Of a stretch of DNA of 64,000 nt, positions 36,125 through 57,938 are shown piece by piece. The stretch comes from Closterium sp. NIES-65 (taxonomy: Eukaryota; Streptophyta; Zygnematophyceae; Desmidiales; Closteriaceae). Numbering within the stretch: the stretch's first letter is position 1; each line of letters opens with the position of its first letter. The notes beneath the pieces were generated by a model. It was not told the DNA's origin and ran no database searches. It saw only the letters and a list, made by a program, of their open reading frames with translations. The position numbers were made by a program, and so were the translations under genes. The DNA lies in NCBI GenBank assembly GCA_948144175.1, contig CANXME010002013.1:67501-131500 (forward strand). Reading direction: 5' to 3'.

Positions 36125-36339
36125 GTAGCAATGTGGCGCGACCAGACGTCGCTAGTAGATGACTCACCAAGCCACAAAAAGGCTTAAAAATAGCAGCGCA
36201 ACAGCAGTAACAGCACCAGCAACACCACCAGCAACACCACCAGCAACGGGGAGGCGCTAATAGTAGTAGCTATGACGCGGCCAGACGTCGCTAGCAGATG
36301 ACTTACCAGATGACTTACTAGGTCACAAAGACTTAAAAT

Positions 36340-36373
<34 letters not shown>

Positions 36374-36503
36374 AGTAAGAGGTGCTAGTAGTAGCAATGG
36401 CGCGGCCAGAAGTCGCTAGCAGATGACTTACCAGATGACTTACTAGGTCACATAGACTTAATATAGCAGCAGCAGCAGCAGCTGAGGGGCGCTAGTAGTA
36501 GCA
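36125..36503 (+). repeat. Three upstream copies of the pectin acetylesterase start region
   Basis: Diverged copies of the first coding bases (atggcgcggccagacgtcgc) occur near 36131, 36272 and 36393. Each is followed by tagcagatgacttaccag-like sequence, a short 'tcacaaagacttaaaatagcag' type segment and CAG repeats, before the true start at 36504. The copy near 36393 keeps an ATG that would begin a short upstream ORF. Confidence 0.85.
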
Positions 36504-39500
36504 ATGGCGCGGCCAGACGTCGCAATCAGAGCGGCGGGCGGCGGGAGGTGGCGCGGACGGGTGGCAGCGTTGGCGTATCTCGCTGCATTCGCACTCGCTA
36601 TAGGGGTGAACTTGAACCCTCTGTACCGATCCAAACCGCAGCAAATGACACACGATCCCCTTCTCTCTGTTTCAGATTCTGCTGCTGCTGATGCTGCTGC
36701 TGGTGCTGGTGCTGGTGGTGCTGGTGGTGCTGGTGCTGTTAGTGGTGGTCAAGTTAGTGGTTCTGATAGTACTAGTAGCACCTCCCACATAGACTCCTCT
36801 CCCTCATCTACCCTCGCAGCCTCCCATTCTCCTCCGCCTTCCCCTCCGCTTCCTCCCCCCGTTCCCCCTCCGCTTCCTCCCCCCGTTCCCCCTCCGCTTC
36901 CTCCCCCTTTTTCCCCACCACTTCCTCCCCCCCTTTCCCCTCCGCCTCCTTCCCCTCCCGTCTTTCCTCCGCCTGTTCCTCTCATTTCTCCTCCTCCTTC
37001 CGGTTCCCCGCCCCCTCCTTCTCCTCCCCTTTCTCCTCCTCCTTCCGTTTCCCTTCCACCTCCTGCTCCTCTCCTTTCTCCTCCTCCTGCTCCTCTCCTT
37101 TCTCCTCCTCCTGCTCCTCTCCTTTCTCCACCTCCTTCCCCAAGAGAAGAGACAGCAGCAGCAGCACAAACAGCTATACAAGAACCAGCATCAGCAGCAG
37201 CAGCACTCGTTTCACCAGCTGACGTGGCAGGAGCCCCTCCCGTGTCAATCGTTTCAGCTGCTGACGTGGCAGCAGACGCGGAGGAAGGGCAGGAGAGTCT
37301 GCAAGCGGGGCTGACTATAGTGAATACATCTAGTGATCCCGGTGCAGGTAGGTAGGTGCTACAGTCTGGGTGGCTGGGCTGCTGCTAGCGGGGCTGACTA
37401 TAGTGAATGCTTCTAGTGATCCCGGTGCAGGTAGGTGCTATGGTCAGTCTGGGTGGGGGGCCATATAGCTGGAAGGAAGGCTAGGCAGTTACTAGTGATG
37501 GAGGGCTTGGGGGGGTGAACGGCTGGGTGTTGGTGATTCGGTGGGGGCAACACGTGTGGTGAGGTGACTTTTGAGTCGACTCCAAAGCCACCTTGTGAAC
37601 GGCTGGGTGTTGCGATGGATGATGGATGGGTGATTCGGTGGGTGAAACACCTGTGCTGCAAAGGAGGACGGCTAGGTTGCAAGTGGTGGGGCGCGGTGGT
37701 CTTGGGATCGGTTGACGATAAGTACAGGGCTGGCGATAGTGATGCCTTCTGATTATCTTGTTGCTGGGGTTATGAGTTGTCATGTCACTGGGATGGATGG
37801 ATGGATGGATGGATAGGCACGTGGATCAGCTGGCGGGAACGGTAGGCTGCTGTTGTTGGGGTGGGGCTGAGGATAGGCTTCATCATTATCTTGTCCTGAG
37901 AAATGAAAGGGTAGGCTGCTAGTGCTGGGAAACGCGTTGGCTGTGACTTTTGAGTCGACTCAAAAGGACTGCCATGCATGGTGTGGCCAGCAGGAGAGAG
38001 TGAGAGCGTAGCATTTGTGACTTTTGAGTCGACTCAAAAGTCACCTCTGAGGATAGGGATGCTTCATCATTATCTTGTCCTGGAAAACGCGTTGGCTGTG
38101 GGATGGAAGGACGGATGGGTAGGCGGTTGGGTCAGCTGGCCTGACCAGAAGGGTAGGCTGCTAGTGCTGAAGGAAAAGCAGCCTGGCCTGGCGAGGCTGC
38201 TAGTGCTGTCACCCCTCTGCTATAGGGGCGGGGCTGCTGGCCGGATGGGTAGGCGGTTGGGTCAGCTGGCCTGGCCAGAAGGGTAGGCTGCTAGTGCTGT
38301 CGCCCCTCTGCAATAGGGGCGGGGCTAACAATACGGATTTGTCCTGAAGTTCTCAGCACACGTGCTGATTCCCCTCTGCACCCCTCTCCATCCCTCTCCA
38401 TTCCTCTCCACCCCCATGGTCCTCCAGTCTGCCTGGACGGTTCCCCTCCAGCCTTCAACTGGCATCCTGGCAGGGGCACCGGGAGGAACAAGTGGATTCT
38501 CTATCTTGAGGTGGGTGCTGTGCGGTGCAGGGAGGTGATGTGCTGTGCTATAGATTAGCCTACAGTGCATTGCGCAAACTCCTCTCTGGCCTTCAACTGG
38601 CATCCGGGCAGGGGCACAGGGAGGAACAAGTGGATTGTCTATCTTGAGGTGGGTGCTGTGCGGTGCAGGTTGGTGACGTGCGGTGCAGCAAATTGCTGTG
38701 CAATGCTTCAATGTTCAGTGTTGTGGGATGAATTTGTCCCCTCCAGCCTTCAACTGGCATCCTGGCAGGGGCACGGGGAGGAACAAGTGGATTCTCTATC
38801 CTGAGGTTGGTGCTGTGCGGTGCAGGGAGGTGATGTACGGTGCAGAAAATTACAGTGCATTAATGTGCGGTACTGTGGGTTGGATTGCGCAAACTCCCCT
38901 CTGGCCTTCAAATGGCATCCTGGCAGGGGCACGGGGAGGAAAAAGTGGATTCTCTATCTTGAGGTGGGTGCAGTGCGGTGCAGAGTGGTGATGTACGTGC
39001 AGTGCAGTAGATTACAATGCAGTGAGTTGCGGTACTGTGGGGTGGATTTCTCCTCTCCGGCCTTCAACTGGCATTCTGGCAGGGGCATGGGGAGGAACAA
39101 GTGGATTCTCTATCCTGAGGTCGGTGCGGCACGCGGTGTAGTGTGGTTGTATGTGGTGCGGTAGATTACAGTGCGTTGCACCAGTTCTTTCCATTTGCCT
39201 TCAACTAGCATCCTGGGAGGAAAGGGCATGGGGAGGAAGAGCAAGTGGATCCGCGAGCAGTGAGGCGCGTTTTGAGGCGCCTCAAGAATCACCTCAGGGC
39301 ATGGGGAGGAACAGCAAGTGGATCCGAGCTGGTTTTTGAGAATTCTCAAAAACCAGCTCGTATCTTGAGGTGGGCTGCCCACCATAACTGGACACCTCCC
39401 GCCCCGCCCTGCGTGCCACCTGCACTGCATGGACTCAGCACACTGCTACCTGGTCTTCTCCCTTGCACGGCACACACTGCTACCTGGTCTTCTCCCTTGC

Positions 39501-42500
39501 ACGGCACACACTGCTACCTGGTCTTCTCCCTTGCACGGCACACACTGCTACCTGGTCTTCTCCCTTGCACGGCACACACTGCACCTCTATTATTCTCCCT
39601 CCCTGCATCCCACGTGCGTCCCTGCAGCAGGCAGGCATGAGTGCATTGCCGAACCGAACTGGTTCGTTTCGAACCGTCCAGATCCCAGGCCGGTTCGAGG
39701 TTCGGTATTATAGTCATCAAACCGAACCGCGGCATGACCGGTTCGTAGCGAACCGGTTCGGTTCGAACCTTCTCGTCCCTCCTCACCCCTCGTCACCCCT
39801 CCTCGCCCCTCTTCGCCTTTGGATAAAAAAAAATAGTCGAACCGGTCAAACTGTCGAACTAGTTCGATGACAAAACGGTTTGACCCGTTTCAAACCTAAA
39901 CAAGATTACAAGGCTGAGGCTCGGCTCAAACCGAACCGAACCGAACCGCATTGAACCTAACTGCGGTTCGGTTCTTTTCTCATCCCTACCCTGCAGGGTG
40001 GGGCGTGGTGCATGGCCGCAGCTCACTTCATGGACAGCAGCTTCAGCCGAGGTAAAGCGCACATCTCCCTTTTGCTCCCTTGCTTGCACTCTTGCGTCCT
40101 TGCAGGGTGGGGCGTGGTGCATGGCTGCAGCTCCCTGCATCGACCGCAGCTTCAGTTGACTCACAACAAGGCACACCTCCTGCCCTGCCTGCCTTGCTTG
40201 CACATCCCCCCTGCAGGGCGGGGCGTGGTGCGAGGATGCCGCTCACTGCATCGATCGCAGCTTCTCCAACTTCGGTTCCTCCACCACACCTCCCACCCAC
40301 CCCACCTGCCTGCAGGGCGGGGCGTGGTGCATGGATGCAGTTTTGAGACGTCTCAAACCCACCTCCCACCCCACATCCCTGCAGGGCGGGGCGTGGTGCA
40401 TGGACACAGCGCACTGCATCGACCGCAGCTTCTCCAACTTCGGTTCCTCCTCCAAGATGGGCGATTGGATGCTGCAAGGGCTGCTCTCTTCCAGCCGTAA
40501 AACCAACCCCGGTGAGCATAACAACCACCCCTGGTCATGGTAAGTGCACAACTTCGGTTCTTGCACCAAGATGGGCAACTGGTTGCTGCAAGGGCTGCTC
40601 TCTTCCAGCCGTAAAACCAACCCCGGTGAGCATAACAACCACCCCTGGTCATGGTAAGTGCACAACTTCGGTTCTTGCACCAAGATGGGCCACTGGCTGC
40701 TGCAAGGGCTGCTCTCCTCCAGCCATACAACAAACCCTGGTAAGTGCTGGGACTTTTCCCCCCTTGCTTGTGCCCCCCCCCTTGTCAAAACTAGAGCTTA
40801 GAATTGATACATTAGTAACGGGCTTGAAGCTCTTTACGTACATCCAGGATGGGCAAGGAAAGGATGGGAAGGGAATCAGGGGAAATCTCTAGGGATTGGG
40901 GGTTATCCCAAGGCAATCGCCAATTGGTGGGTTGGAGATTGTTTGGAGATCACATTTGGGTTTGGTTGGGATGTTGGTGTACACCCAACCAAACACTACG
41001 CTAGGATATAGAAAGTACAAAATATTAAGTGGGAGATTGATGTCTAACTCGCTCTAGTGACTTCTGCCCCTCCTTTTTAGTGCCGCCTCGCCCCTCCTCT
41101 CCTCCACCAAGGTGGGCCACTGGATGCTGCAAGGGCTGCTCTCTTTAGTGCCCCCTCGCCCCTCCCACTGCGTGCCCCAGCCTCTCTCTAGTGGCTTCTG
41201 CCTCTCCCCTCTAGTTGCCTCTGCCCCCTCGCCCCTCCTCTCCTCCACCAAGATGGGCCACTGGATGCTGCAAGGGCTGCTCTCTTTAGTGCCCCCTCGC
41301 CCCTCCCACTGCGTGCCCCAGCCTCTCTCTAGTGGCTTCTGCCTCTCCCCTCTAGTTGCCTCTGCCCCCTCGCCCCTCCTCTCCTCCACCAAGATGGGCC
41401 ACTGGATGCTGCAAGGGCTGCTCTCCTCCAGCCGTAAAACAAACCCCGGTGAGTCCCTCTATTCCCCCTCTCCCCCACCACCTTCCCTCCCACCTTCCCT
41501 CCCACCCTCCCCCCTACCTTCTCTCCCACCTACCCCCACTCTCTTTCTTCATCCCCCCACTCTCATTGCGATCCCACTCTTTGCGCCTCTTCCCTCTCCC
41601 TCCCACCTCCCCCCACTCCAGACTTCTTCAACTGGAACGCAATGGACCTTACTCCATACCCACACCCTCACTGAAACCCCCCTGCTTCCACCTCTCTTTC
41701 CTTCCCTTCCACCTCCTCCTTCCTCCCCCCCTTCTCCCCCTCCCCTCCCCTACCAGACTTGTTCAACTGGAACCTGGTATGTATCCATCCGCTACTGTGA
41801 TAGAACTTCCTTCATCCCCCCACCCTCATCAAGAGTCCTCTGCTTCCATCCTTCTGTCTGCCCACTCTCTGTGCTCCCTCTCCCCTCCTCTCCCCTCCTC
41901 TCCCCTCCCCTCCCCTCCCCTCCCCTCCCCTCCCCTCCCCTCCCCTCCCCGCCCCTCCGAGACTTGTTCAACTGGAACCTAATTTGTATCCGATCCGTTA
42001 CTGCCATAGACCTTCCCTCCCCAACCCCTGTTCCCTCCTCTTTGCTTCCCCCACCCCACCCCCCCCTCCCTCTCCAGACTTGTTCAACTGAAACAGGGTC
42101 TATATCCGCCGCTACTGCGATGGGGCTTCCTTTGTCCCCCACCCTCATTAAAATGCCTCTGCTCCCATCTCTCTGCCCCCCTCTCCCCACCTCCCTTTCC
42201 CTCCTCTCCAGACTTGTTCAACTGAAGCATGGTCTATATCCACCGCTACTGCGATGATGCTTCCCTTCCCAACCTCTGCTGCCTCCTCTTTGCTTAACCC
42301 TAAACCCCTCCCCTCCCCTTACCTCCCTTCCCAGACTTGTTCAACTGGAACATGGTCTATATGCGCTACTGTGATGGAGCTTCATCCTTCTTGCCTCCAC
42401 CCTTTAAACAATCTGCTTCCACCTCTGCCCCCCCTATTTTACCTGCATTTCCCCCCTCCTCCTCCCAGGCTTCTTCAACTGGAACATGGTTTATATCCGC

Positions 42501-45500
42501 TACTGCGATGGGGCTTCCTTTATCGGCAATGTTGACGAGCCAATCAGAGACCATGTGAGTGCATGGGGAGAAGGAGCACAGGGAATGGTGGAGCTTCTTT
42601 TATCGGCAATGTTGACGAGCCGCTCCGAGACCATGTGAGTGGATGGCTGGTGTGAAGGAGCATAGTAAGTAGCTTGGCTGCTGGGTTGGTGTGGTGTGAA
42701 GGGGCAGAGTGAATGTCAAACGTAGGACTGATGGGGCTTCCTTCATTTCATGGGCAAAGTTGACGAGCCGCTCCGAGACCATGTGAGCCGTTGGTGTGAC
42801 GGAGCAGAGTGAATGGTGTGAATGTGAAGCGGCAGAGTGAATGGTGTGAATGTGAAAGGGCAGAGTGAATGGTGTGAATGTGAAGGGGCGGAGTGAATGT
42901 CAAGCGTATGATCGACTGATTGAGCTTCCTTCATTTCATTGGCAAAGTTGACGAGCCGCTCCGAGACCATGTGAGTGGATGGATTGTTCTGTATGCCATT
43001 AGTTAAAAGGTGCTTCAATCAAATTTTTGAGCGAGTGACAGGGCAAACGTCGGCAAGTTACTTAACTTTAAGGTAGTGCACACATAGTCCTTTCTGACTT
43101 GAAAGGAACTTGACTAACGCCGTCCGGGCTATTAAAGTTAGTCCTCGCTTGGCTCTTTTGAGTCCTCTAAAAACTCTAAGGTGATGCAAATAGTCCTTCC
43201 CGCCTAATGCCGTCCGGGCCGACGTGTCTTCATCGCCATTATCTCCCACCTGTTAGCCCACCATGGCATGCAGTCACCCTCTCATGTTCACTGTTCATCT
43301 CTAGTACCGCATTCCCCCTATCCCCCCCTGTCCCTTCACCCACGCAGGAAGGCAAGCCTCAGATCTACATGCGGGGTCGTCGTGTCTTCAATGCCATTCT
43401 CTCCCACCTGCTAGCCCACCACAGCATGCGCTCAGCCTCCCACATCCTCCTCTCCGGCTGCTCTGCTGGTGGCCTGGCAGCCCTCCTCCTGTGCGACAGC
43501 CTGGCTGACCGCATGAGGAGCTTGAGGGAGAATGAAGAGCTTGAGGGAGTGGGGAGAGGAGGGGAAAAGGGAGGAGTGGTGGTGAAGTGCATGTCGGATG
43601 GCGGGTACTTCCTGGATGCGAGGGATATTGGCGGCAGGCACTTCCTGAGGGAAACCATGTTTCATCGGGTTGCTGCGTTTCATGTGAGACGGCTGGCTGT
43701 GTTATGTCTGAGTTCCTTGCGTTGGATGCGAGGGATATTGGCAGCAGGCTCTTCCTGAGGGAGACCATGTTCAATCGGGTTGCCACGTTCCATGCGAGTT
43801 CAGTGTGGTTCGTGTGTGAGGTCGGTTGCTGTGTCACACACACGTGAGGGAGGGGTGGTGGTGAAGTGCATGTTGGATGGGGGTTACTTTCTGGATGCGA
43901 GGGATATTGGCGGCAGGCTCTTCCTGAGGGAGACCATGTTTCGCCTGGTTACCGCGTTTCACGTGAGTTTGGTGTGTTGTCTTTGAGTTCCTTCCTTGCG
44001 TTGGATGCTAGGGATATTGGCGATTGGCTCTTCTTGAGGGAGACCATGTTTAATCAGGTTGCCGCGCTCCACGTAAGCTCGTCTGGTCTGGTTACATGCC
44101 GTGTTACATTACATGCATCCTCTGGTTGTGGGGGTTACTTCCTGGATGCAAGGGATATTGGTGTCAGAACTTGAGCTTAAAATCCATGCATTAGTAATGA
44201 GCTGAAAGCTCCTTAAGTACATTGGAAATGGGCAAGGTAAGGGTGGGGAGAGAGTCGGGAGCAATCCTAGGAAATTGGGGGTAATCCCAAGGCAATCTCC
44301 TATAGGTGGGCTGGAGATTGCTTGGAGATCACATTTGGGTTTAGTTGGGATGTGGGTGTACACCCAACCAAACATAAAGTGCAAACTACACTAAACTAGG
44401 ATATAAAAAGTACAAGTACAAATGTGAGATTGAGGGCTAACATTAACACCCCGCCACAGGCGTCAATCGAACTCATGGCAGAGAAGGAGGAGCGCAGAGC
44501 CCCATGGTGCCTAGAAGGCGATGATGAGGAACCTTCTCAAGGGGCTTGGTGAACAGATCATAGAAGTTGCAATCAAAAGCTACGTACTCCACATTGAGCT
44601 GCTCCCACTGGACAAGGTCACGGATGAAGAAGTGCCGAAGTTCGATGCACTTGGTGCGAGTGTGGTACATGGGATCCTGGGACAGGTGGATGGTGCTCTT
44701 GTTGTCACACCAGAGCGTGGGAGTGGGCTGAGGGTTGCCAAGCTTCTGGAGTAGGAAGGTGAGCTAGCGGGCCTCCTGAGCCGCCATGGTGCCAGCGTAG
44801 AGCTCGGCCTCACAGGAGGAGAGAGAGACTACAGACGACCGGGTGGAGCGCCAGCTGACAATTCGGCTCCCAAGGGTAAAACAGTAGCCTTGGGAGGAGC
44901 GTCGGTTGGTCTGGTCATCAGCCCAGGAGGAGGCAGTGTACCCTTCCAGTCGAGGAGGAGAAAGCCCACCAAGGGTGAGGACATGAGACTTGGTGCCCTG
45001 CAGATCTAAGTGGAGAAAGACGCACGCGTCCTGCTGCGTCCTGCGTCTCGACGCAGCGTCCAGACGCAGAGACGCAGGACGCACCTCGTTTTTTTTTTCA
45101 GGCTGACCGGAAAAAAAATTGCCTCAGCGCGAAATTGCCTCAACGATTTCGACGCGACTGTCAATTTCGCGTCATGTCGACCCCCCCTAACCCATTTCGA
45201 CCATCAAAAACACCCTAGAGGGTTTACCAAGACAATTCTCCTTCGTAAACCCGAAACCCTGGAAATGTAAAGGGGACGATTTTGCCTCAAATGTGTGCAT
45301 CGTCGTCCCCCCCCCCCCCCCCCTTCCCATACCCTATAACATCATTTTTCGGCTGTCCAGGGTTTTTTTTTGCCCTGCCCGGGCATGCGTCTTTTCATGC
45401 GTCCTTAAGGCCCTCCTCTAGCGTCCTGCGTCTAAGACGCTGCGTGTGGACGCAAGCGTCTTAGACGCAGGACGCGTCTTTCTCCACTTAGCTGCAGATA

Positions 45501-48500: not shown

Positions 48501-51500
48501 GATTAACAAGTTGATAGTTGCCGAGGCGAAGGCCATGGTGAAGAACCTCTTTCTCGCGCGAAATGTCTCTCTTGAATCACCGATAAGAACTTCGGGTTTA
48601 GGGTTTACGAAGGAGAATTGCGAAGTAGGGTTTATGAAGGAGAATTTTGAGGAGAGGTTTGGCATTTTCGAAATCCGAAGGTCCCGAAGAGCAAAGAACG
48701 TCAATGTTGGCCGCTTCAAGATGTCTCATAGGAGGTTTAAGGCCGGCGAAAATAGGTTGAAACGGCCGATTTTGGTAGTGTCGACTAACTACTGACCCTG
48801 TTCCCACACACCCCCCCACACACCACCCTCAGCTTCGCGGCTACACTGCTGCTCAGCTTCACTGCTACACGGCTGCTCAGCTGCGCAGCTTCACCTGTTC
48901 AGTTGCGGGGTGATGGAAGTGCTGTTGCGGGGCGATGGGCGGCAGCTCGAAGGTGACGCTGTAGGGCGACGGGCGGTAGCCCGAAGAGAAGATGCAGGGC
49001 GATGGGCGGCAGCTCGAAGGGAAGCTGCAGGGCGACGAGCAGCAGCCCGACGATTGACGAGATGGGAAAAATTGGGTTATGCCGAAGCGGGAAGGACGGC
49101 GGGACAAATCCGCGGTGATGAGGGAGAGCGACGAGGAAATGGTGGCTACGGTTACCTTAAGTGAGACGCATAAATTGGTGCCTCGTAACTCAAGGAAAGG
49201 TAGTGTGGGAGAGAATCTACCCACGAAAGATGTCGCGAATCAACGGCTACGATGACGGCGCGGGAAAAATTCCGGCCGTGAAGATTAGGTTGATGAGGGT
49301 ACTTTACTCGAGCGATGAATGTTGAAGGCGGCTTCGCCTAAGGGTGTGGGAGAGGATTCCGCAAAGGTAAAAGGATCAAGATCCGCATGTGCGGTTGAAG
49401 AGCTCTGATACCATGTCAGAACTTGAGCTTAGAATCCATGCATTAGTAATGAGCTCAAGGCTCCTTAAGTACATTGGAAATGGGCAAGGTAAGGGTGGGG
49501 AGAGAATCGGGGGCAATCCTAGGGGATTAGGGGCTTAGTTCAGAAAGACGCGTCCTGCGTCCTGGACGCATGCGTCCAGACGCATGCGTCCAGACGCAGG
49601 ACGCTGACCCTTGACCTGTAAGACGCACCAAAAGACGCAAGCCCGGGCAGGGCAAAAAAAACCTCCGGGCAGGCCAAAAATATTGTATAGGGCTTGGGGT
49701 GGAAGAAGAAGGAATGCTCGAGGAAACCATAGCGGAGTTTAGGTGGTAAGCTAAGCTAAGGCCTAAAACCTCTATGGGTTTACGAAAGAGAATTGGTGAG
49801 GGGAAAATGAGAAGCCACAAAGGTTGTCATGCTAAATGTGCTTGGTGGTGGTGGGCTACAAAGGTTGGGATTCGTAGATGCCAAGTGGTTGAGAGGTTTG
49901 AGTGAAATTCAATTTTGGTTTAGTTGTTAGGGAATGTTAGGGGGGCTGGTTTTGAATGGCGAATTGGGCTTGGGGTGGGGAGATTTCGCGATTTCGACAT
50001 TCGCGTCGAAATCGCGAATGCCAAAATCGCGATCGTATTTTTTTTTCGGGCTGCCCGAAAAATTTTTTGACGTGCGTCCTGCGTCTGGACGCGCGTCCTG
50101 CGTCCTAGCGTCCAGACGCTGCGTCCGGACGCAGGACGCAGCGTCCTAGCTGCGTCTTTCCGAACTAAGATTAGGGGTAATCCCAAGGCAATCTCCAATT
50201 GGTGGGTTGGAGATTGCTCGGAGATCATATTTGGGTTTGGTTAAGTGCAAACTACACTAAACTAGGATATAAAAAGTACAAGTACAATTGTGAGTAGGCA
50301 TGATCATTAGGCCCGACCCGACCCGACCCGACCCGACTTGGGCGGGCCAGCCGGGTTCCGGGTCGGGTCGGGTCGGGTCGGAACTTCAAAAAATCCTGGC
50401 CCGACCCGGGTATCGGGTGCCGGGTCAGGCGTGACCCGCCCCCGGGTCGGGTCGGGTAGGGGCCGGGTCGGGTCGGGTCGGGCCAGGACCCCATATGCAG
50501 GGTAAGAGGTTCCTAAGTTGGAAAAAACGCTAGTTTCATGTTGCGTATTGAGTTTATACGCATCTAGAATTCGTACGCTGCGGATTTTTCTAAAATTCGC
50601 CAAATTTGGCTCGGGCTGACCGGAAAAAAAAATCAGATGAGTTCGCGATCTGGCGAACTCAAATTTGAGTCTAGAAATTCAGATCTGAGTTCGCGCGTTG
50701 CTAAAGCAACTTCAGATCTGAATTTCGAGATTGTTGGTGGATCATTCCCTCTTATCCACCGCTCACAACCCACCTTCACCCCATCCAATTTGTTGCCAAC
50801 TTCTACCAGACTCACTCAATGTCAGGCCGCTTTTCCCTTCAATAATCTTTGCGTTCAATTTCTTCCTCTTCACTTTGACGATGACCTACTACAGCAACTC
50901 CGGTCTAGGGTTTAGACATTGACTTCGCGATCTGCTCTAGTGCAACTTGTCGAGGGAATGTCAATGTCGAGGGAACAAACAAACCCTAGACATTGACTTC
51001 GCGATCTGCTTTAGTGCAACTTGTCGAGGGAGGAAAAGTCGGGTTGGGCCAAATACTCGACCCGACTTAGGGCGCGGTACCCGAAACCGGGTCGGGTACG
51101 ACTTCGGGTCTAAATCTGACCCGACCCGACCCGACCCGGTTTCGGGTGTCGGGTCGACCCGACCCGACCGGGTAAACCCGACCCGACCCGGCCGGGTCAG
51201 CGCTTCAAAATGCCTGACCCGACCCGGGTCAAAACCCGGGTCGGGTCGGGTCGACCCGACCCGCCGGGGCAGGATGATCATGCCTAATTGTGAGATTGAG
51301 GGCTAACATTAACAATTGGCGGCCGGCACTTTTTGAGGGACACCATGTTCCGCCTGGTTACCGCATTCCACATGAGTTCGCTGTGTTACATGTCAGTTGT
51401 GTTACATTGCATGTGAGTTTGCTGTACTACATGTGAGCTCGCTGTGTTCCATGTGAGTTCCCTGTGTTACATTTCCTTCTCTGCCTTCTCTGCTCCCTCC

Positions 51501-54500
51501 TCTCCCCCCTCTTCGTATTCCTTTGCTCCCATCCCTTCCTTCCACCTCTCCCTCCCTTCTTACCCCTTTCCTCCTCTTCTTCTGCCATCCTCCCCTCTCC
51601 ACCCTCCTCTCCTGACAGGCTGTCATCTCAACCCCCACTGCCTTACCCTTTCGCCCATCCACTAACAGTTCCTCTTAGTGCTTCTTTCCAGAGAACTTTC
51701 TCCCCTTCCTCTCCCTCCCCTCCCTTTCCCTTCCTCCCTTGCCTTCTCCTGACAGAATCTCATCTCAACCCCCACAGCCTCACCCTATCGCCCATCCACT
51801 GATATCTCCTCCCAGTGCTTCTTTCCACCGCACTTCCTCCCCTTCCTCTTCTTTCTCCCCTTCCTCGTCTTCCCATCTCTTGCCCTCCCGATAGAACGTC
51901 ACGCTGAACCCCACTGCTTTGCTTCGCCCATCCACTGACAGCTCCTCCTACTGCTTCTTCCCTTTCCCGTCCCCTCCTGACAGAATGTCATCTCAACCCC
52001 CACTTCCAGCTCCTCCTAGTGCTTCCTCCCCCTCCTCTCTTTCCCTTCCCTTTCCCGTCTCCTTCCTCCCCCTCCTCTCTTTCCCTTCCCATTCCCGTCC
52101 CCTCTTGTCTTCTCCTGACAGAATGTCATCTCAACCCCCACTGACAGCTCCTCCTCCTGCTTCTTCCCTTCTCAGCGCACTTCCTCCCCTTCCCTCATTT
52201 AGTTTCCCTCCCTTGCTCTCCTCACTTGCTCCCCTCCCCCCTCTGCCTCCTCTCCCCCAACAGAATGCCGCACTGAATCCCCACTGCCTCACCCTTTCGC
52301 CCACCCACGGACACCTCCCAGTGCTTTTTTCTCAGCGCACTTTCTCCTCTTCCTCTCCTTCTCCCCCCTTTCCCTTCCCCCCTTCCCTTCTCTCTACAGA
52401 ACGTCACTCTCAACCCCCACTGCATCGCCTCCCAGCCACCCGCGAACACCTCACAGTGCTTCTTCCCACAGAATTTCCTCCCCTTCCTCCACACGCCCTT
52501 CTTCATTCTCAACTCGCTCTACGACTCCTGGCAGGTAAGGCTTGCTCTTTTCTCTTGCATTTCTATTGCAAACCACCCTTGAATTCCTGCCCCACACCAC
52601 ACCCTCCCCTTCCTCCACACGCCCTTCTTCATTCTTAACTCGCTCTACGACTCCTGGCAGGTAAGGCTTGCTCTTTTCTCTTGCATTTCTATTGCAAACC
52701 ACCCTTGAATTCCTGCCCCACACCACACCCTCCCCTTCCTCCACACGCCCTTCTTCATTCTCAACTCGCTCTACGACTCCTGGCAGGTAAGGCTTGCTCT
52801 TTTCTCTTGCATTTCTATTGCAAACCACCCTTGAATTCCTGCCCCACACCGCACCCTCCCCTTCCTCCACACGCCCTTCTTCATTCTCAACTCGCTCTAC
52901 GACTCCTGGCAGGTAAGGCTTGCTCTTTTCTCTTGCATTTCTATTGCAAACCACCCTTAAATTCCTGCCCCACACCACACCCTCCCCTTCCTCCACACGC
53001 CCTTCTTCATTCTCAACTCGCTCTACGACTCCTGGCAACTAAGGCTTGCTCTTTTCTCTTGCATTTCTATTGCAAACCACCCTTGAATTCCTGCCCCACA
53101 CCACACCCTCCCCTTCCTCCACACGCCCTTCTTCATTCTCAACTCGCTCTACGACTCCTGGCAGGTAAGGCTTGCTCTTTTCTCTTGCATTTCTATTGCA
53201 AACCACCCTTGAATTCCTGCCCCACACCGCACCCTCCCCTTCCTCCACACGCCCTTCTTCATTCTCAACTCGCTCTACGACTCCTGGCAGGTAAGGCTTG
53301 CTCTTTTCTCTTGCATTTCTATTGCAAACCACCCTTAAATTCCTGCCCCACACCACACCCTCCCCTTCCTCCACACGCCCTTCTTCATTCTCAACTCGCT
53401 CTACGACTCCTGGCAACTAAGGCTTGCTCTTTTCTCTTGCATTTCTATTGCAAACCACCCTTGAATTCCTGCCCCACACCACACCCTCCCCTTCCTCCAC
53501 ACGCCCTTCTTCATTCTCAACTCGCTCTACGACTCCTGGCAGGTAAGGCTTGCTCTTTTCTCTTGCATTTCTATTGCAAACCACCCTTGAATTCCTGCCC
53601 CACACCGCACCCTCCCCTTCCTCCACACGCCCTTCTTCATTCTCAACTCGCTCTACGACTCCTGGCAGGTAAGGCTTGCTCTTTTCTCTTGCATTTCTAT
53701 TGCAAACCACCCTTAAATTCCTGCCCCACACCACACCCTCCCCTTCCTCCACACGCCCTTCTTCATTCTCAACTCGCTCTACGACTCCTGGCAACTAAGG
53801 CTTGCTCTTTTCTCTTGCATTTCTATTGCAAACCACCCTTGAATTCCTGCCCCACACCACACCCTCCCCTTCCTCCACACGCCCTTCTTCATTCTCAACT
53901 CGCTCTACGACTCCTGGCAGGTAAGGCTTGCTCTTTTCTCTTGCATTTCTATTGCAAACCACCCTTGAATTCCTGCCCCACACCGCACCCTCCCCTTCCT
54001 CCACACGCCCTTCTTCATTCTCAACTCGCTCTACGACTCCTGGCAGGTAAGGCTTGCTCTTTTCTCTTGCATTTCTATTGCAAACCACCCTTAAATTCCT
54101 GCCCCACACCACACCCTCCCCTTCCTCCACACGCCCTTCTTCATTCTCAACTCGCTCTACGACTCCTGGCAACTAAGGCTTGCTCTTTTCTCTTGCATTT
54201 CTATTGCAAACCACCCTTGAATTCCTGCCCCACACCACACCCTCCCCTTCCTCCACACGCCCTTCTTCATTCTCAACTCGCTCTACGACTCCTGGCAGGT
54301 AAGGCTTGCTCTTTTCTCTTGCATTTCTATTGCAAACCACCCTTGAATTCCTGCCCCACACCGCACCCTCCCCTTCCTCCACACGCCCTTCTTCATTCTC
54401 AACTCGCTCTACGACTCCTGGCAGGTAAGGCTTGCTCTTTTCTCTTGCATTTCTATTGCAAACCACCCTTAAATTCCTGCCCCACACCACACCCTCCCCT

Positions 54501-57500
54501 TCCTCCACACGCCCTTCTTCATTCTCAACTCGCTCTACGACTCCTGGCAACTAAGGCTTGCTCTTTTCTCTTGCATTTCTATTGCAAACCACCCTTGAAT
54601 TCCTGCCCCACACCGCACCCTCCCCTTCCTCCACACGCCCTTCTTCATTCTCAACTCGCTCTACGACTCCTGGCAGGTAAGTCTTGCTCTTTTCTCTTGC
54701 ATTTCTATTGCAAACCACCCTTGAATTCCTGCCCCACACCACACCCTCCCCTTCCTCCACAAGCCCTTCTTCATTCTCAACTCGCTCTACGACTCCTGGC
54801 AGGTAAGGCTTCCTCTTTTCTCTTGCATTTCTATTGCAAACCACCCTTGAATTCCTGCCCCACACCACACCATCCCCTTCCTCCACACGCCCTTCTTCAT
54901 TCTCAACTCGCTCTACAACTCCTGGCAGGTAAGGCTTGCTCTTTTCTCTTGCATTTCTATTGCAAACCACCCTTGAATTCCTGCCCCACACCACACCCTC
55001 CCCTTCCTCCACACGCCCTTCTTCATTCTCAACTCGCTCTACGACTCCTGGCAGGTAAGGCTTGCTCTTTTCTCTTGCATTTCTATTGCAAACCACCCTT
55101 GAATTCCTGCCCCACACCACACCCTCCCCTTCCTCCACACGCCCTTCTTCATTCTCAACTCGCTCTACGACTCCTGGCAGGTAAGGCTTGCTCTTTTCTC
55201 TTGCATTTCTATTGCAAATTTGAGCTTTCTAGTTCGACTCAAAAACCACTTTCTTTAACCTCAACTCGCACCCTCGCCCACTCCTTTGCATCTTTCATAG
55301 ACTTCCCAGAAAGCGCATGGCGTGCGTGCCGTGCCGCGTGTCTGCAAGCTCTCTCAACCTCACCTTTTTCCTCTTGCACTGTGCTGCCCAACGCCCCCTC
55401 CACTCCACGCCATCCGCAGATCGCCCACTCCTTTGCATCCTTCACAGTCTTCAAAGAAAAGGCGTGGCACGTGTGGTGCATGGCCTGCTGCTGCAATCTT
55501 TCCTACCCTCATGCATTGTGCTGCCCAACGCCCCCTCCACTCCACGCCATCCGCAGATCGCCCACTCCTTTGCGTCCTTCACAGTCTTCCCAGAAAAGGC
55601 GTGGCACTCGTGCCGCATGTCGCTGCAGGGGTGCAATCAGGAGCGGCTCGATCTTATTCATGGTACGAAAGCATGGTCGATGTGCTAATAATGTCATAGA
55701 TCCATGTGTAAGTAACAGGGAAAAACAACTGTACTGCTGGCTGGTTGTTAGGGTTAGCCCTTGCTCTTCTTTTCTCTCGCATGTCTCCATCTCATCACTT
55801 ATTTCATCTGTTCCTCTCTCGCCCTCGCCTTCCGTTGTCTCCCACTTATTTTCCTCCCCTTATTTTTCTCATCTTGTTTTTCTCCTCTTATTTTCCTCCC
55901 CTTATTTTTCTCATCTTGTTTTTCTCCTCTTATTTTCCTCCCCTTATTTATCTTATCTTGTTTTTCTCCTCTTATTTTCCTCCCCTGATTTTTCTCATCT
56001 TGTTTTTCTCCTCTTATTTTCCTCCCCTTATTTTTCTCATCTTGTTTTTCTCCTCTTATTTTCCTCCCCTTATTTTTCTCATCTTGTTTTTCTCCTCTTA
56101 TTTCCTCCCCTTATTTTTCTCATCTTGTATTTCTCCTCTTATTTTCCTCCTCCTAGTCTCCTCTATCTCACACATGGCAACCCCACCCTCCTGCCCTTCG
56201 ATCCTCTTGTCTCCCACTTCCCCCCATCTCACTCAGTCAAGGCTGCTCTTTCCCTCCCCCTTCTCCTTCTTCTCCCACATTCCCCCGTCTCGTTCAAGGC
56301 AACCCCACTCTCGCCCTCACCTCCTCTCTCTCCCACATTCATGTTTTGATTCTCCCCCTCTCGCCTCACCTCCTGCTGTCGCCCACGTTTTGGCCTCGCC
56401 CCCCCCTTCCCTGCGTTAACAGCCTATCGGGATGAGACGGTGGGCAAGGTGACGCCCCTCCTCTCCTCTCCTTCCCCATCCCAAGTTCTGCCTCTCACCT
56501 TCTCTCCTTCTCTCCTTATCTCCTTGCCGCCCTCCCTCCCCCCCCCCCCCCCCCCCTTTCCCTGCCCCAACAGCCTATCGGGATGAGATGGTGGAAAAGG
56601 TGTCGCCCCTCCTCTCGTCCAATCGCAGCGCGCCACCTGTCCGGCGCCTGTTGGCTGCAGCATCAAGCGAAAGTTCAGCAAACGGAGCGTACCTCGTGTC
56701 CTGCCGAGCACACTGCATGGTGAGTAGGTGCAAAGATCTGATGTGATTGCATGGCAAAGAAATGCAAATTTTTTTATGGATAACAGCTGAGATTTGTTGA
56801 CGTTGTGTGTGGGACCTTCGTCATTCAATATTCCCTAGAGTCTGATTTATGCCAGAACCCATAACAACCAATGTGGCATGCATGGCATGGCAGCATCACT
56901 CCATATTCCCAAGAGTTTATTCCATTGTATGGCATGTGAGATGGCTGTAGGGGGCATCGTCCCATGTGACGTGGTGACTTTGAGTCGACTCAAAAGCATC
57001 ACTCCTCCCACATTCCATACTATGGCATGTAATATGGCCCCATGCGGCATCGTCCCATGTGACATGGCCCCATCCCATGCGGCATCGTCCCATGTGACAT
57101 GGCCCCATGCGGCATCGTCCCATGTGACATGGCCCCATAGGGGCATGGCAGCATGGAATGTCAGCAGTGCTGATCTCCCTCATCTTTCCACACTTTCCAT
57201 ACTCCATGTCTATCCCATGTTTCTTGTCTCCCATTCACGCATGAGATCCATCCATCTCCAGTGTCCATCACACAGGTCATTTTTTAGGAGCCTCAAAAAT
57301 CCATTCACCACACGCTTGTGACCCATCCATCTCATGTGTCCATCACACAGGCCATGGGCCCCATGTCACCCCTCCTCTATCCCATCCCATCCTGATTTAT
57401 GGGTCGACTCAATAATAATTCCCTTACCTGTAATCTGTTACACAGGCGATGCGTCCAGTCTATTCTTTAGACGTCTCAAAACAATTTGTGTTTACATGGC

Positions 57501-57938
57501 ACATGTGTCTATGCTGTCTCCAGGCCTTCAACCCCACTCTCACATCGTCCTTCTCCTGCTGTGATCACTGTACAGGCCATGAGTCCCATGTTGCTCCTCC
57601 CCGCATTCTTCCAATTTCTCATGTGTCCCTTCTGAGAATTTTCATCCTTTTGCAATCCGTGTTACAGGCAATGGGTCCCATGTGGCATGGCAGCACTGCC
57701 CCACAAATACACAACAAGGTACGCTCTTGTCAATACTTTTCCCGTAAGTTTACCGTAGATTTCTTTATTTGTTCCATAGCTCGCATGCATTATTCGTGTG
57801 TTTCCAATTATTTTCCCCTCTGCACCCTTTCTTATCCCCCCACAGACGATGGCAGAGGCAGTGGGAGACTGGTTCTTTGACAGGCAGAGTGTATCCCTTG
57901 TCGATTGTAAACACCCCTGTAATCCCACATGCGCATGA
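36504..57938 (+). CDS. Pectin acetylesterase, membrane-anchored, proline-rich (10 exons)
   Basis: Exons A-J: 36504-37347, 38428-38510, 40385-40511, 42469-42554, 43348-43683, 52400-52534, 55557-55662, 56574-56719, 57668-57718, 57846-57938. All join in phase with GT-AG borders, giving 668 aa. Exon A has a type II anchor (VAALAYLAAFALAIGVNL) and a ~120-aa Pro-rich, extensin-like stretch. Exons B-J match plant PAE (family CE13, Notum relatives): VCLDGSPPAF, LYLEGGAWCM, NWNMVYIRYCDGASF, the nucleophile box GCSAGGLAALL (Ser419), SDGGYFLDARD, CFFPQNFLPFLHTPFFILNSLYDSWQ in two adjoining parts (probable catalytic Asp534), SCRAHCM (His619), and the C-terminal AVGDWFFDR...PCNPTC. The enzyme would remove acetyl groups from wall pectin. 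The introns are packed with partial exon copies and transposons, so alternative splice choices are plausible. For exon D several copies exist, and the full one begins Gly where others give the family-typical Asp. Confidence 0.87.
37391..37433 (+). repeat. Copy of the 3' end of exon A with donor
   Basis: Repeats ctgactatagtgaatgcttc...ggtgcag and the gtaggt donor 86 bp downstream of the original exon end. Confidence 0.9.
37567..37587. repeat. TTTTGAG-type palindrome (imperfect)
   Basis: cttttgagtcgactccaaag: arms TTTTGAG/CTCCAAA around the self-complementary centre TCGA, one mismatch. Confidence 0.75.
37947..37966. repeat. TTTTGAG-type palindrome, 20 bp perfect
   Basis: cttttgagtcgactcaaaag, perfect inverted repeat with centre TCGA, in intron A-B. 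Confidence 0.95.
38017..38044. repeat. TTTTGAG-type palindrome, 28 bp perfect
   Basis: Perfect 14+14 bp inverted repeat. Each arm extends the 37947 palindrome by GTGA/TCAC. It lies 50 bp from the previous one. Confidence 0.95.
39272..39285. repeat. TTTTGAG-type palindrome, centre GCGC
   Basis: ttgaggcgcctcaa, 14 bp perfect, at the truncated front of the last exon-B copy. Confidence 0.85.
39325..39360. repeat. TTTTGAG-type palindrome, 36 bp perfect, inside an exon-B copy
   Basis: 18+18 bp perfect inverted repeat with centre AATT and arms containing TTTTTGAG/CTCAAAAA. It sits between the parts of the exon copy that read gtggat and tatcttgag, so it replaces or splits the copied exon. Confidence 0.95.
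39439..39590 (+). repeat. 34-bp minisatellite in intron B-C
   Basis: Four full copies plus a partial of a unit containing cacactgctacctggtcttc, nearly identical. Confidence 0.95.
39628..39988. mobile_element. hAT-like MITE rich in GGTTCG motifs
   Basis: About 361 bp. Flanked by ccctgcag on both sides (39620-39627 and 39989-39996), an 8-bp duplication that coincides with an exon-C acceptor sequence. Ends are imperfect inverted repeats (caggcaggcatgag; the right end in reverse reads tagggatgag). The interior is filled with aaccg/cggtt words in both orientations. The left TIR contains a 4-bp slip, so its edge is less certain than for the other MITEs. Confidence 0.65.
39997..40384 (+). repeat. 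Four upstream copies of the 5' end of exon C
   Basis: Copies starting at 39997, 40106, 40217 and 40316 repeat the acceptor ctgcag and the start ggcggggcgtggtgcatgg (GGAWCM) before the complete exon at 40385. The fourth is cut off by the palindrome at 40342. Confidence 0.9.
40342..40357. repeat. TTTTGAG-type palindrome, centre ACGT
   Basis: tttgagacgtctcaaa, 16 bp perfect, exactly where the fourth exon-C 5' copy stops matching the exon. Confidence 0.92.
40540..40782 (+). repeat. Two downstream copies of the 3' end of exon C
   Basis: Near 40544-40630 and 40665-40742, each repeating acttcggttc...aagatgggc...ctgctctc..ccagcc and a gtgagc or gtaagt donor. Confidence 0.9.
40783..41048. mobile_element. 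Solo LTR related to the Copia-5 LTR
   Basis: About 266 bp, colinear with the Copia-5 LTR: shared blocks include gagcttagaat, cattagtaa, gggcaagg, cccaaggcaatc, ggagatcacatttgggtttg, gtacacccaaccaaacac and aggatata. It is more diverged than the two Copia-5 LTRs are from each other. No internal region or clear duplication, so it is an old solo LTR. Orientation is as in the + strand LTR text of Copia-5, i.e. minus element. Confidence 0.85.
41091..41449 (+). repeat. 141-bp array of exon-C 3' ends
   Basis: Three copies (starts near 41109, 41250, 41391) of a 141-bp unit combining the exon-C tail (aagatgggccactggatgct) with pyrimidine-rich intron. The last keeps ccgtaaaacaaaccccg and a gtgagt donor. 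Confidence 0.92.
41610..42400 (+). repeat. Six upstream copies of the 5' end of exon D
   Basis: Starts near 41618, 41758, 41962, 42079, 42212 and 42335, each with a cag acceptor and acttgttcaactggaac or close variants (DFFNWN/DLFNWN). Some contain a stop (ctgaaac). The complete exon is at 42469. Confidence 0.9.
42590..42975 (+). repeat. Three downstream copies of the 3' end of exon D
   Basis: Near 42590-42635, 42728-42786 and 42922-42972. Each repeats gttgacgagccgctccgaga ccat followed by a gtgag donor. Short gaatggtgtgaatgtgaag repeats separate the last two. Confidence 0.9.
43218..43275 (+). repeat. Upstream copy of the 5' part of exon E
   Basis: Repeats cgtgtcttca..gccattatctcccacctgttagcccaccatggcatg, matching exon E near 43378-43430, upstream of the full exon. 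Confidence 0.85.
43700..44161 (+). repeat. Downstream copies of the 3' end of exon E
   Basis: Copies near 43718-43794, 43850-43964, 43996-44074 and 44125-44161 repeat ggatgcgagggatattggc...ctgagggagaccatgtt, usually with a gtgag donor. The last is cut by Copia-5 and resumes at 51315-51375. Confidence 0.9.
44162..44448 (-). repeat. Copia-5 3' LTR
   Basis: 287 bp, TGTCAGAACT...ATTAACA as read on the + strand. Contains a 30-bp segment (including gtgtacacccaacc) absent from the other LTR. The next bases, ccccgcca, complement to a short polypurine tract. Confidence 0.92.
44473..48719 (-). pseudogene. Copia-5 pol (protease to RNase H, broken)
   Basis: Minus strand. The protease reads FTLDSEATHTLL, with Glu in place of the Gly of DSG. 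Then come HHRLGHPNFRTL, an integrase core (HMDVWGPAP, HSDGGGEF, QQNGIVESRN), a Pro-rich linker, RT (KARYVAKGFTQQQ, LVYVDD intact at about 45927-45938), then RNase H split by the MITE at 45006-45491. The 3' part has ASSWADDQTNRRS, SCEAELYAGTMAAQEAR, a stop near 44764, and CDNKSTIHL to the end. Frame changes lie near 47150 and 46150. The most plausible start is 48536 (MAFASATINLL) or 48719. No gag domain precedes it. Confidence 0.87.
45006..45491. mobile_element. hAT-type MITE, family A (GCGTCC-rich), in Copia-5 pol
   Basis: 486 bp with terminal inverted repeats ctaagtggagaaagacgc and an exact 8-bp duplication ctgcagat (44998-45005 and 45492-45499). The subterminal regions are dense in gcgtcc/ggacgc words. 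The interior has caggctgaccggaaaaaaaa. No coding capacity. The 8-bp duplication indicates hAT transposase. Confidence 0.95.
48720..49401 (-). other. Copia-5 leader in place of gag
   Basis: About 0.7 kb between PBS and protease with no recognisable gag domain. A gcgatgggcggcagctcgaag unit recurs imperfectly near 48930-49040 (multiple copies of about 36-40 bp). Confidence 0.7.
49402..49413 (-). other. Copia-5 primer-binding site
   Basis: On the minus strand tggtatcagagc, adjacent to the 5' LTR, complementary to initiator tRNA-Met. Confidence 0.88.
49534..50169. mobile_element. hAT-type MITE, family A, in the Copia-5 LTR
   Basis: 636 bp, ends cttagttcagaaagacgc / (reverse) cttagttcggaaagacgc, duplication attagggg (49526-49533 and 50170-50177). 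Same family as 45006-45491: gcgtcc-dense ends and a t-rich cggg..gcccg interior. No coding capacity. Confidence 0.95.
50295..51286. mobile_element. hAT-type MITE, family B (GGGTC-rich), in the Copia-5 LTR
   Basis: 992 bp with terminal inverted repeats taggcatgatcat and the exact duplication attgtgag (50287-50294 and 51287-51294). Both ends carry 100-200 bp of cgacccgacc/gggtcgggtc repeats. The interior contains ggctgaccggaaaaaaaa, also seen in family A, and an internal direct repeat (gacattgacttcgcgatctg near 50918 and 50991). Confidence 0.95.
51315..51605 (+). other. Remainder of the exon-E copy and following intron
   Basis: 51315-51375 continues the exon-E 3' copy interrupted by Copia-5 (ggcactttttgagggacacc...). 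Then several short repeats of catgtgagttcgctgtgtta and pyrimidine-rich intron. Confidence 0.8.
51606..52399 (+). repeat. Six upstream copies of the 5' end of exon F
   Basis: Copies near 51619, 51756, 51893, 51983, 52120 and 52262, typically about 135 bp apart, repeat (acag)aatgtcatctcaacccccactg and part of cagtgcttctt..cagagaac. They are diverged and several lack frame. The full exon starts at 52400. Confidence 0.88.
52475..55217 (+). repeat. 126-bp array: 22 copies of the exon-F 3' end with donor
   Basis: Unit = last ~60 bp of exon F (LPFLHTPFFILNSLYDSWQ) + gtaagg donor + ~60 bp of intron. Donor positions run from 52535 to 55181 in 21 steps of exactly 126 bp. Most units differ by only a few bases. 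At 53039, 53417, 53795, 54173 and 54551 (378 bp apart) the donor reads ct instead of gt. These mark a three-unit higher-order repeat repeated about five times. The last four units carry private changes, as expected at an array edge. The whole array stays open in one frame because 126 is a multiple of three. Confidence 0.97.
55221..55248. repeat. TTTGAG...CTCAAA arms at the array edge
   Basis: The final array unit stops after attgcaaa and continues as tttgagctttctagttcgactcaaaa: the same arms as the palindromes, with a 13-14-bp spacer. Confidence 0.7.
55262..55556 (+). repeat. Two upstream copies of exon G
   Basis: Near 55275-55335 and 55427-55490, repeating the start of exon G (tcgcccactcctttgcatccttc..gtcttc..gaaaaggcgtgg). 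The intron between them (gtgctgcccaacgccccctc...ccgcag) is also duplicated. Confidence 0.88.
55845..56150 (+). repeat. 42-bp pyrimidine-rich minisatellite in intron G-H
   Basis: About seven copies of a unit containing ttattttcctccccttattt and tctcatcttgtttttctcct. Confidence 0.93.
56424..56475 (+). repeat. Upstream copy of the 5' end of exon H
   Basis: acagcctatcgggatgagac followed by ggtgggcaaggtgacgcccc, matching exon H (56574) with a few changes and an intact acceptor. Confidence 0.92.
56955..57600 (+). repeat. Short repeats and upstream copies of the exon-I start
   Basis: gcatcgtcccatgtgacatggcccc recurs at about 56955-57135. Acceptor plus exon-I-like starts (caggccatgggccccatgtc, caggccatgagtcccatgtt, caggcgatgcgtcc) occur near 57349, 57571 and 57443, before the full exon at 57668. 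Confidence 0.82.
56979..56994. repeat. TTTTGAG-type palindrome in intron H-I
   Basis: tttgagtcgactcaaa, 16 bp perfect, following a truncated catgtgac repeat unit. Weaker relatives lie near 57281 (tttttaggagcctcaaaaa), 57403 (gggtcgactcaata) and 57466 (tttagacgtctcaaa). Confidence 0.88.

Follow-up and report, generated by a model that had tools for sequence, protein, structure and literature searches.

Intron growth is usually attributed to transposons and to unrecognisable sequence, and in 2007 Zhuo et al. reportedly, to go by their title, derived human introns from tandem arrays. In the potato RdRp gene, an intron was gained by one duplication over an intron-exon boundary, which according to the accessible part of the report gave a new spliced intron together with inserted exon sequence, as confirmed by RNA reads (PMC4974935). 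Rogers-type introns are gained by duplication of an exonic AGGT, with Drosophila cases presented in the available sections of that account (PMC2891723), and in Lipomyces a donor duplication of 4-7 nt gives the nested introns known as stwintrons (PMC7138796). Here we describe a 64,000-nucleotide stretch of Closterium sp. NIES-65 (contig CANXME010002013.1, positions 67,501 to 131,500; hereafter the window), in which the introns of a pectin acetylesterase (PAE) gene contain many truncated copies of the neighbouring exons. Copies of exon starts lie upstream of their exon and copies of exon ends lie downstream, an arrangement we refer to as the mirror rule.

The likeness to the arrays of Zhuo et al., by title alone, lies in splice-site-bearing tandem arrays within genes. 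As in potato RdRp, a direct tandem duplication runs over an intron-exon boundary and the splice signals come from the parental junction; unlike the one event set out in the accessible part of that report, there are many events per gene and in several genes, and the extra piece of exon seems to stay intronic (PMC4974935). Rogers-type gain likewise adds splice motifs to a gene through a small local tandem duplication, but there, as far as the available sections go, coding sequence becomes a new intron, whereas in Closterium existing introns appear to lengthen while exons stay whole and copies are intronic (PMC2891723). The stwintrons share a donor element duplicated inside an intron, but they involve 4-7 nt and nesting rather than arrays of exon ends (PMC7138796). 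Tandem exon duplication, in the portion of the source available, is also a local duplication with exon sequence, but it concerns whole alternative exons where only truncated ends are found here (PMC9013439). A literature search, with most subscription journals outside its reach, found no account in which exon-end copies fill the introns of gene after gene, and the parts of the Closterium genome paper covered make no mention of such copies (PMC10407611). An earlier sequence-only reading of this stretch had held that no named phenomenon resembles it; within the literature searched, that stands for the pattern across many genes, but a single junction-crossing duplication has been described, at least in the accessible text on potato (PMC4974935). 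The type of event is known, and its density here is unusual.

The PAE gene occupies 36504-57938 on the plus strand and has ten exons separated by GT-AG introns (Table 1), with a spliced coding sequence of 2007 nt that encodes 668 amino acids. PF03283, the domain of pectin acetylesterases and NOTUM esterases, covers the product at full length (profile positions 4-354 of 355, E 9e-105), and NOTUM structures match its C-terminal part (E 9e-20). Each exon was searched by blast against 34-60 kb of the window. Most matches of the exon A interior and the minus-strand matches of exons A, C, E and F were set aside as low-complexity or very short, as were short matches of H at 41.1-41.4 kb, of C at 39426 and of F at 55840. 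After filtering, exons B-H have start copies upstream only and end copies downstream only, mostly in direct orientation. The sequence-only reading had described this arrangement, and most of its counts were reproduced: three copies upstream and one downstream for exon A, five downstream for B, four and five for C, and six and three for D. Its single upstream copy of E was recovered, with five downstream copies instead of four (the extra one at 51315); for F the 21 downstream copies were confirmed and five, not six, upstream copies were found. The starts of G and H are copied upstream twice and once, but the copies claimed for exon I were unconvincing, with no match longer than 17 bp (three of that length at E 0.01 and another of 13 bp), and exon J gave no copies in this search. 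No copy spans both ends of its exon (0/56 for exons B-J), few whole-exon copies being expected from the unit sizes alone by a hand estimate; tandem or mutually exclusive exon duplication, with its whole-exon copies bearing both splice sites, was rejected on this count. In view of the hand estimate, a purge of whole-exon copies by selection was considered and not adopted either.

Copies had also been said to keep the acceptor or donor, which is mostly, not always, the case. Outside exon F, AG is kept in 12 of 13 and GT in 11 of 13 of the copies that reach the junction; upstream of exon E, the copy covers exon positions 27-95 and so has no acceptor. The array after exon F retains the GT donor in 16 of its 21 exon-end copies and lacks it in 5. 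Within this array (52477-55218), 5 of the 21 copies have the junction ACTAAG in place of GGTAAG, exactly 378 bp or three units apart, which suggests that a three-unit block was amplified later. Exon and adjoining intron are repeated jointly, for example at exons B and D, that is, the direct duplication crosses the boundary. Many copies are only 75-97% identical to their exon. The proposal that tandem duplications cross the junctions is thus supported by copies that are direct, local and often periodic, and by two arrays that differ by exact units between two genomic loci. A rule of splice junctions as such, however, did not hold up: the start of exon A is the translation start, yet it is copied upstream three times in the same way, and the rule is therefore not tied to splice junctions.

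Exon-end copies of the same kinds are present at a second PAE locus, on contig C1663. When this locus is aligned with 36.0-44.2 kb of the window, 37 of 8029 columns are mismatched; with 51.3-58.2 kb the figure is 143 of 4312, a poorly matched end included. Its F array is shorter by 2520 bp, or 20 units of 126 bp, its C array is without one 114-bp unit, and smaller repeats also differ; entire units have been gained and lost between the two loci. The C1663 locus may be an allele or a segmental duplicate of the window gene. When the genome (874,075,685 bases in 2400 contigs) was searched with the stretch 43207-43758 around exon E, nine matches on two contigs, the window locus and its twin only, were found among the best candidates scored. 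With no further locus among those candidates, introner-like elements, which would be near-identical inserts scattered through the genome, were rejected. In the transposon-bearing intron, the twin is longer by about 2.8 kb near 47.08 kb (47081) and lacks about 1.6 kb of 49533-51286.

The pattern recurs in other genes, but unevenly. The rule was counted in PAE and in four CCT chaperonin genes (L073-L076, with 23 profile-defined exon cores), together 33 exons and 66 exon sides. Only direct copies between neighbouring exons were counted; the transposon-bearing 44161-51285 was excluded, which leaves the E copy at 51315 uncounted, and L073 1959-2198 and L075 827-949, CCT profile rows that represent copies, did not serve as exons. 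On this basis the rule is obeyed by 117 of 118 copies and by 41 of 42 exon-side clusters, the sole exception being an internal fragment in L076. Copies accompany 27 of the 33 exons and 42 of the 66 exon sides (0.64). Upstream of one exon of the CCT epsilon gene, the exon start is repeated in an array of 11.5 units with a unit length of 124 bp (L073 4720-6014 in reverse complement coordinates; L077 4712-6139). This locus and its twin on C1794 have equal numbers of units, with 7 mismatches in 7479 columns and a difference of one 21-bp repeat unit. The best 30 PAE-family matches have copies at 6 loci, the window locus and its twin among them (30/30 on the matching side), and the best 30 kinesin matches at 10 loci (25/25, three of them inverted), in samples that contain many near-identical twin loci, favour long exons and take in 1.5 kb of flank only; copies were thus present at 16 of the 60 family loci sampled. 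Further fragments of the exon-end kind were seen by eye, uncounted, in rows of the CCT and myosin profile searches. A TPT-like frame, whose Pfam match falls short of the cut-off, lies nearby at 30-31 kb, and the one exon core tested in it gave no copies. The PAE family itself is large, with at least 120 exon-level matches in the genome, many on twin contigs.

We consider it probable that the mirror rule is explained by much local tandem duplication in some gene bodies and by survival of the outcomes that leave an exon intact. Pieces of roughly 70-200 bp would be duplicated repeatedly and tolerated by the cell. A duplication over an acceptor would double the intron tail and exon start, the downstream copy still holding the entire exon, and one over a donor would double the exon end and intron head, with the entire exon in the upstream copy. 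If duplications that leave one intact exon survive, start fragments would gather upstream and end fragments downstream, and the rule would arise because of survival and geometry. Fragments would later drift, re-amplify or vanish in whole units, and introns would lengthen. Tolerance may come through exon definition, as only a single splice site of the exon's pair would remain in a truncated copy. What we infer here is the chemistry of duplication, the action of selection and splicing that ignores the relics.

In six gene stretches, 32-66% of the intron sequence lies within local direct duplications, whereas the figure for 12 control pieces is 0-26%. Transposon-rich control pieces may, however, be younger than the gene stretches; the highest control, 30-36 kb, contains the TPT-like frame. 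Enrichment of genes in local duplication is suggestive. It is the amount of duplication, not the mirror rule, that is unusual, and the rule was reproduced by a simulation of random tandem duplications kept only if one intact exon remained (32 runs in four settings chosen by the analyst). In these runs 371 of 398 copies obeyed the rule, so targeting of junctions is not required for it. An alternative, which we regard as unlikely, is that a linked process such as transcription, R-loops or breaks at pyrimidine tracts directs duplication to splice junctions or gene bodies. It is favoured by the exon-touching families, which hold 12948 of 28623 intron bases (45%) against 2589 (9%) in intron-only families, by the excess of intron coverage over controls, by a share of exon sides with copies that is higher than the untargeted runs gave (0.27-0.52), and by TTYATC, which matches where the D unit is inferred to end, one suggestive case of microhomology seen by eye. 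However, against the observed ratio of exon-touching to intron-only families of 38:16 (2.4), the simulation gave 31, 4.1, 1.9 and 0.65 at starting introns of 80, 150, 300 and 450 bp, so that introns of 150-300 bp yield a similar ratio along with the rule. The start-codon end is hit as well, and exon-touching repeats remain detectable longer because the exon is conserved. The comparison of exon-side shares led us to raise our estimate for targeting a little and to lower slightly that for untargeted duplication with survival of intact exons. That shortfall in exon sides is one of several observations that weigh against the latter. Simulated total intron coverage exceeds the observed; pieces at 1-12 kb of the window hold other genes' coding sequence and zero local duplications; and an age gradient with the nearest copy youngest was sought and not found (the nearest copy had the higher similarity in 15 clusters and the lower in 11, with 2 ties). 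In most pairs of copies the intron parts agree less closely than the exon parts, and three similar kinesin loci (L046, L047 and L048) have an inverted exon-end copy beside a direct one on the matching side, which may reflect template switching. To these is added an excess of third-position differences in all copy-exon comparisons, in changes private to CCT copies and in the less diverged copies.

Judged by their sequence, the copies mostly look like non-coding relics, because the frame is broken by 18 of 23 gaps in PAE, where there are also 4 in-frame stops, and by 25 of 28 gaps in CCT, where there are 3; such indels and stops speak against regular coding use, and the copies may have been in coding use in the past. 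In these counts the recent CCT epsilon array was taken as one copy for private changes and for positions and indels, and the F array likewise for positions and indels; both were omitted from pair counts. All copy-exon differences at codon positions 1/2/3 number 73/48/118 in PAE and 80/68/267 in CCT. Changes private to one copy number 20/19/25 in PAE (n=64; 18 synonymous, 27% expected; 2 stops) and 33/22/79 in CCT (71 of 134 synonymous against 29% expected; no stop); in the less diverged copy of each pair they number 20/27/45 and 12/4/24, respectively, the pairs being non-independent. By our own reckoning, copy decay and synonymous drift of the copy's own exon would give third to second positions at most about two to one. 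The excess, clearest in CCT, is above this and may stem from diverged alleles of copy and exon. On protein-level selection the two sets of copies disagree, private changes being flat in PAE and third-position-biased in CCT. Unequal exchange between diverged alleles or subgenomes, with copy and exon from different parents, would refine rather than oppose local duplication with survival of intact exons. It fits the third-position excess and the near-symmetric direction of substitution in CCT (exon S/copy W 107, exon W/copy S 97), and the Closterium complex has genome-wide copy-number variation according to the available part of its genome paper (PMC10407611); the PAE private changes, however, are without such a bias, and we rate this exchange as rather unlikely. 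It is quite improbable that the copies function as alternative acceptors, donors or partial exons under selection, with junctions as regulated splice clusters: the retained AG and GT and the third-position excess with no stop among the private CCT changes would agree with this, but the broken frames and in-frame stops, the flat PAE changes, the lack of copies spanning a whole exon and the loss of GT in part of the F array would not. Least probable are false duplications from long-read assembly. Assembly of tandem arrays is difficult, and the two contigs disagree by 20 units over the F array, but many copies are too diverged from their exon for read-stacking errors, the CCT epsilon array has the same length on both contigs, and the pattern was found again in PAE, kinesin and CCT genes.

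Intron growth at these loci can be read unit by unit, including between two near-identical gene copies, and rates of gain and loss are therefore measurable. Introns with copies are natural tests of splice-site choice, as after exon F, where most copies keep GT. Old haplotypes would also be preserved in the chaperonin copies, should diverged alleles be the source of their third-position signal. A lineage-wide extension is possible, though we hold it as doubtful: introns would grow chiefly from truncated copies of flanking exons, much of the intron sequence in genes would be a dated record of older exon versions, diverged alleles among them, and many intact decoys would routinely be passed over by the spliceosome for the outermost donor and acceptor.

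Table 1. Exons of the PAE gene and exon copies in its introns and upstream flank (window coordinates).
Feature	Position	Strand	Evidence	Remarks
Exon A	36504..37347	+	gene model, PF03283	start codon; low-complexity N-terminal region
Exon B	38428..38510	+	gene model, PF03283	
Exon C	40385..40511	+	gene model, PF03283	127 positions
Exon D	42469..42554	+	gene model, PF03283	
Exon E	43348..43683	+	gene model, PF03283	holds GCSAGG
Exon F	52400..52534	+	gene model, PF03283	
Exon G	55557..55662	+	gene model, PF03283	
Exon H	56574..56719	+	gene model, PF03283	
Exon I	57668..57718	+	gene model	
Exon J	57846..57938	+	gene model	ends with stop codon
Exon A start, three copies	36134..36423	+	blast	upstream of real start codon (36134, 36272, 36397)
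Exon A end, one copy	37382..37430	+	blast	94%, followed by GTAGGT
Exon B 3' parts, five downstream copies	38580..39250	+	blast	80-97% identical; first four at 156-158 bp spacing; fifth without very end
Exon C start, four upstream copies	39997..40335	+	blast	AG before each
Exon C 3' parts, five downstream copies	40549..41448	+	blast, repeat search	114-bp and 141-bp tandem arrays; two stop at exon position 106/127
Exon D start, six upstream copies	41623..42383	+	blast	each preceded by AG and pyrimidine tract
Exon D end, three downstream copies	42589..42970	+	blast	followed by GTGAG
Exon E positions 27-95, one upstream copy	43216..43284	+	blast	without acceptor
Exon E 3' parts, four downstream copies	43723..44167	+	blast	
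Exon E end, fifth downstream copy	51315..51370	+	blast	far side of transposon
Exon F start, five upstream copies	51622..52355	+	blast	
126-bp tandem array, 21.8 copies	52477..55218	+	blast, repeat search	exon F end, donor and intron start; 21 copies intronic
Exon G start, two upstream copies	55274..55498	+	blast	
Exon H start, one upstream copy	56423..56468	+	blast	

The E-F intron carries a transposon on the minus strand, with reverse transcriptase and integrase sequence. Dense palindromic repeats (CGTCCTGCGTC/GACGCAGGACG) were seen by eye in the transposon region, at about 45030-45480 and 49540-50150. A DUF4378 gene is also present in the window; DUF4378 is linked to plants. Short palindromes such as TTTGAGTCGACTCAAA recur in the PAE introns, by eye at about 37570, 37950, 38030, 39270, 56980 and 57460, and look like small inverted-repeat elements.

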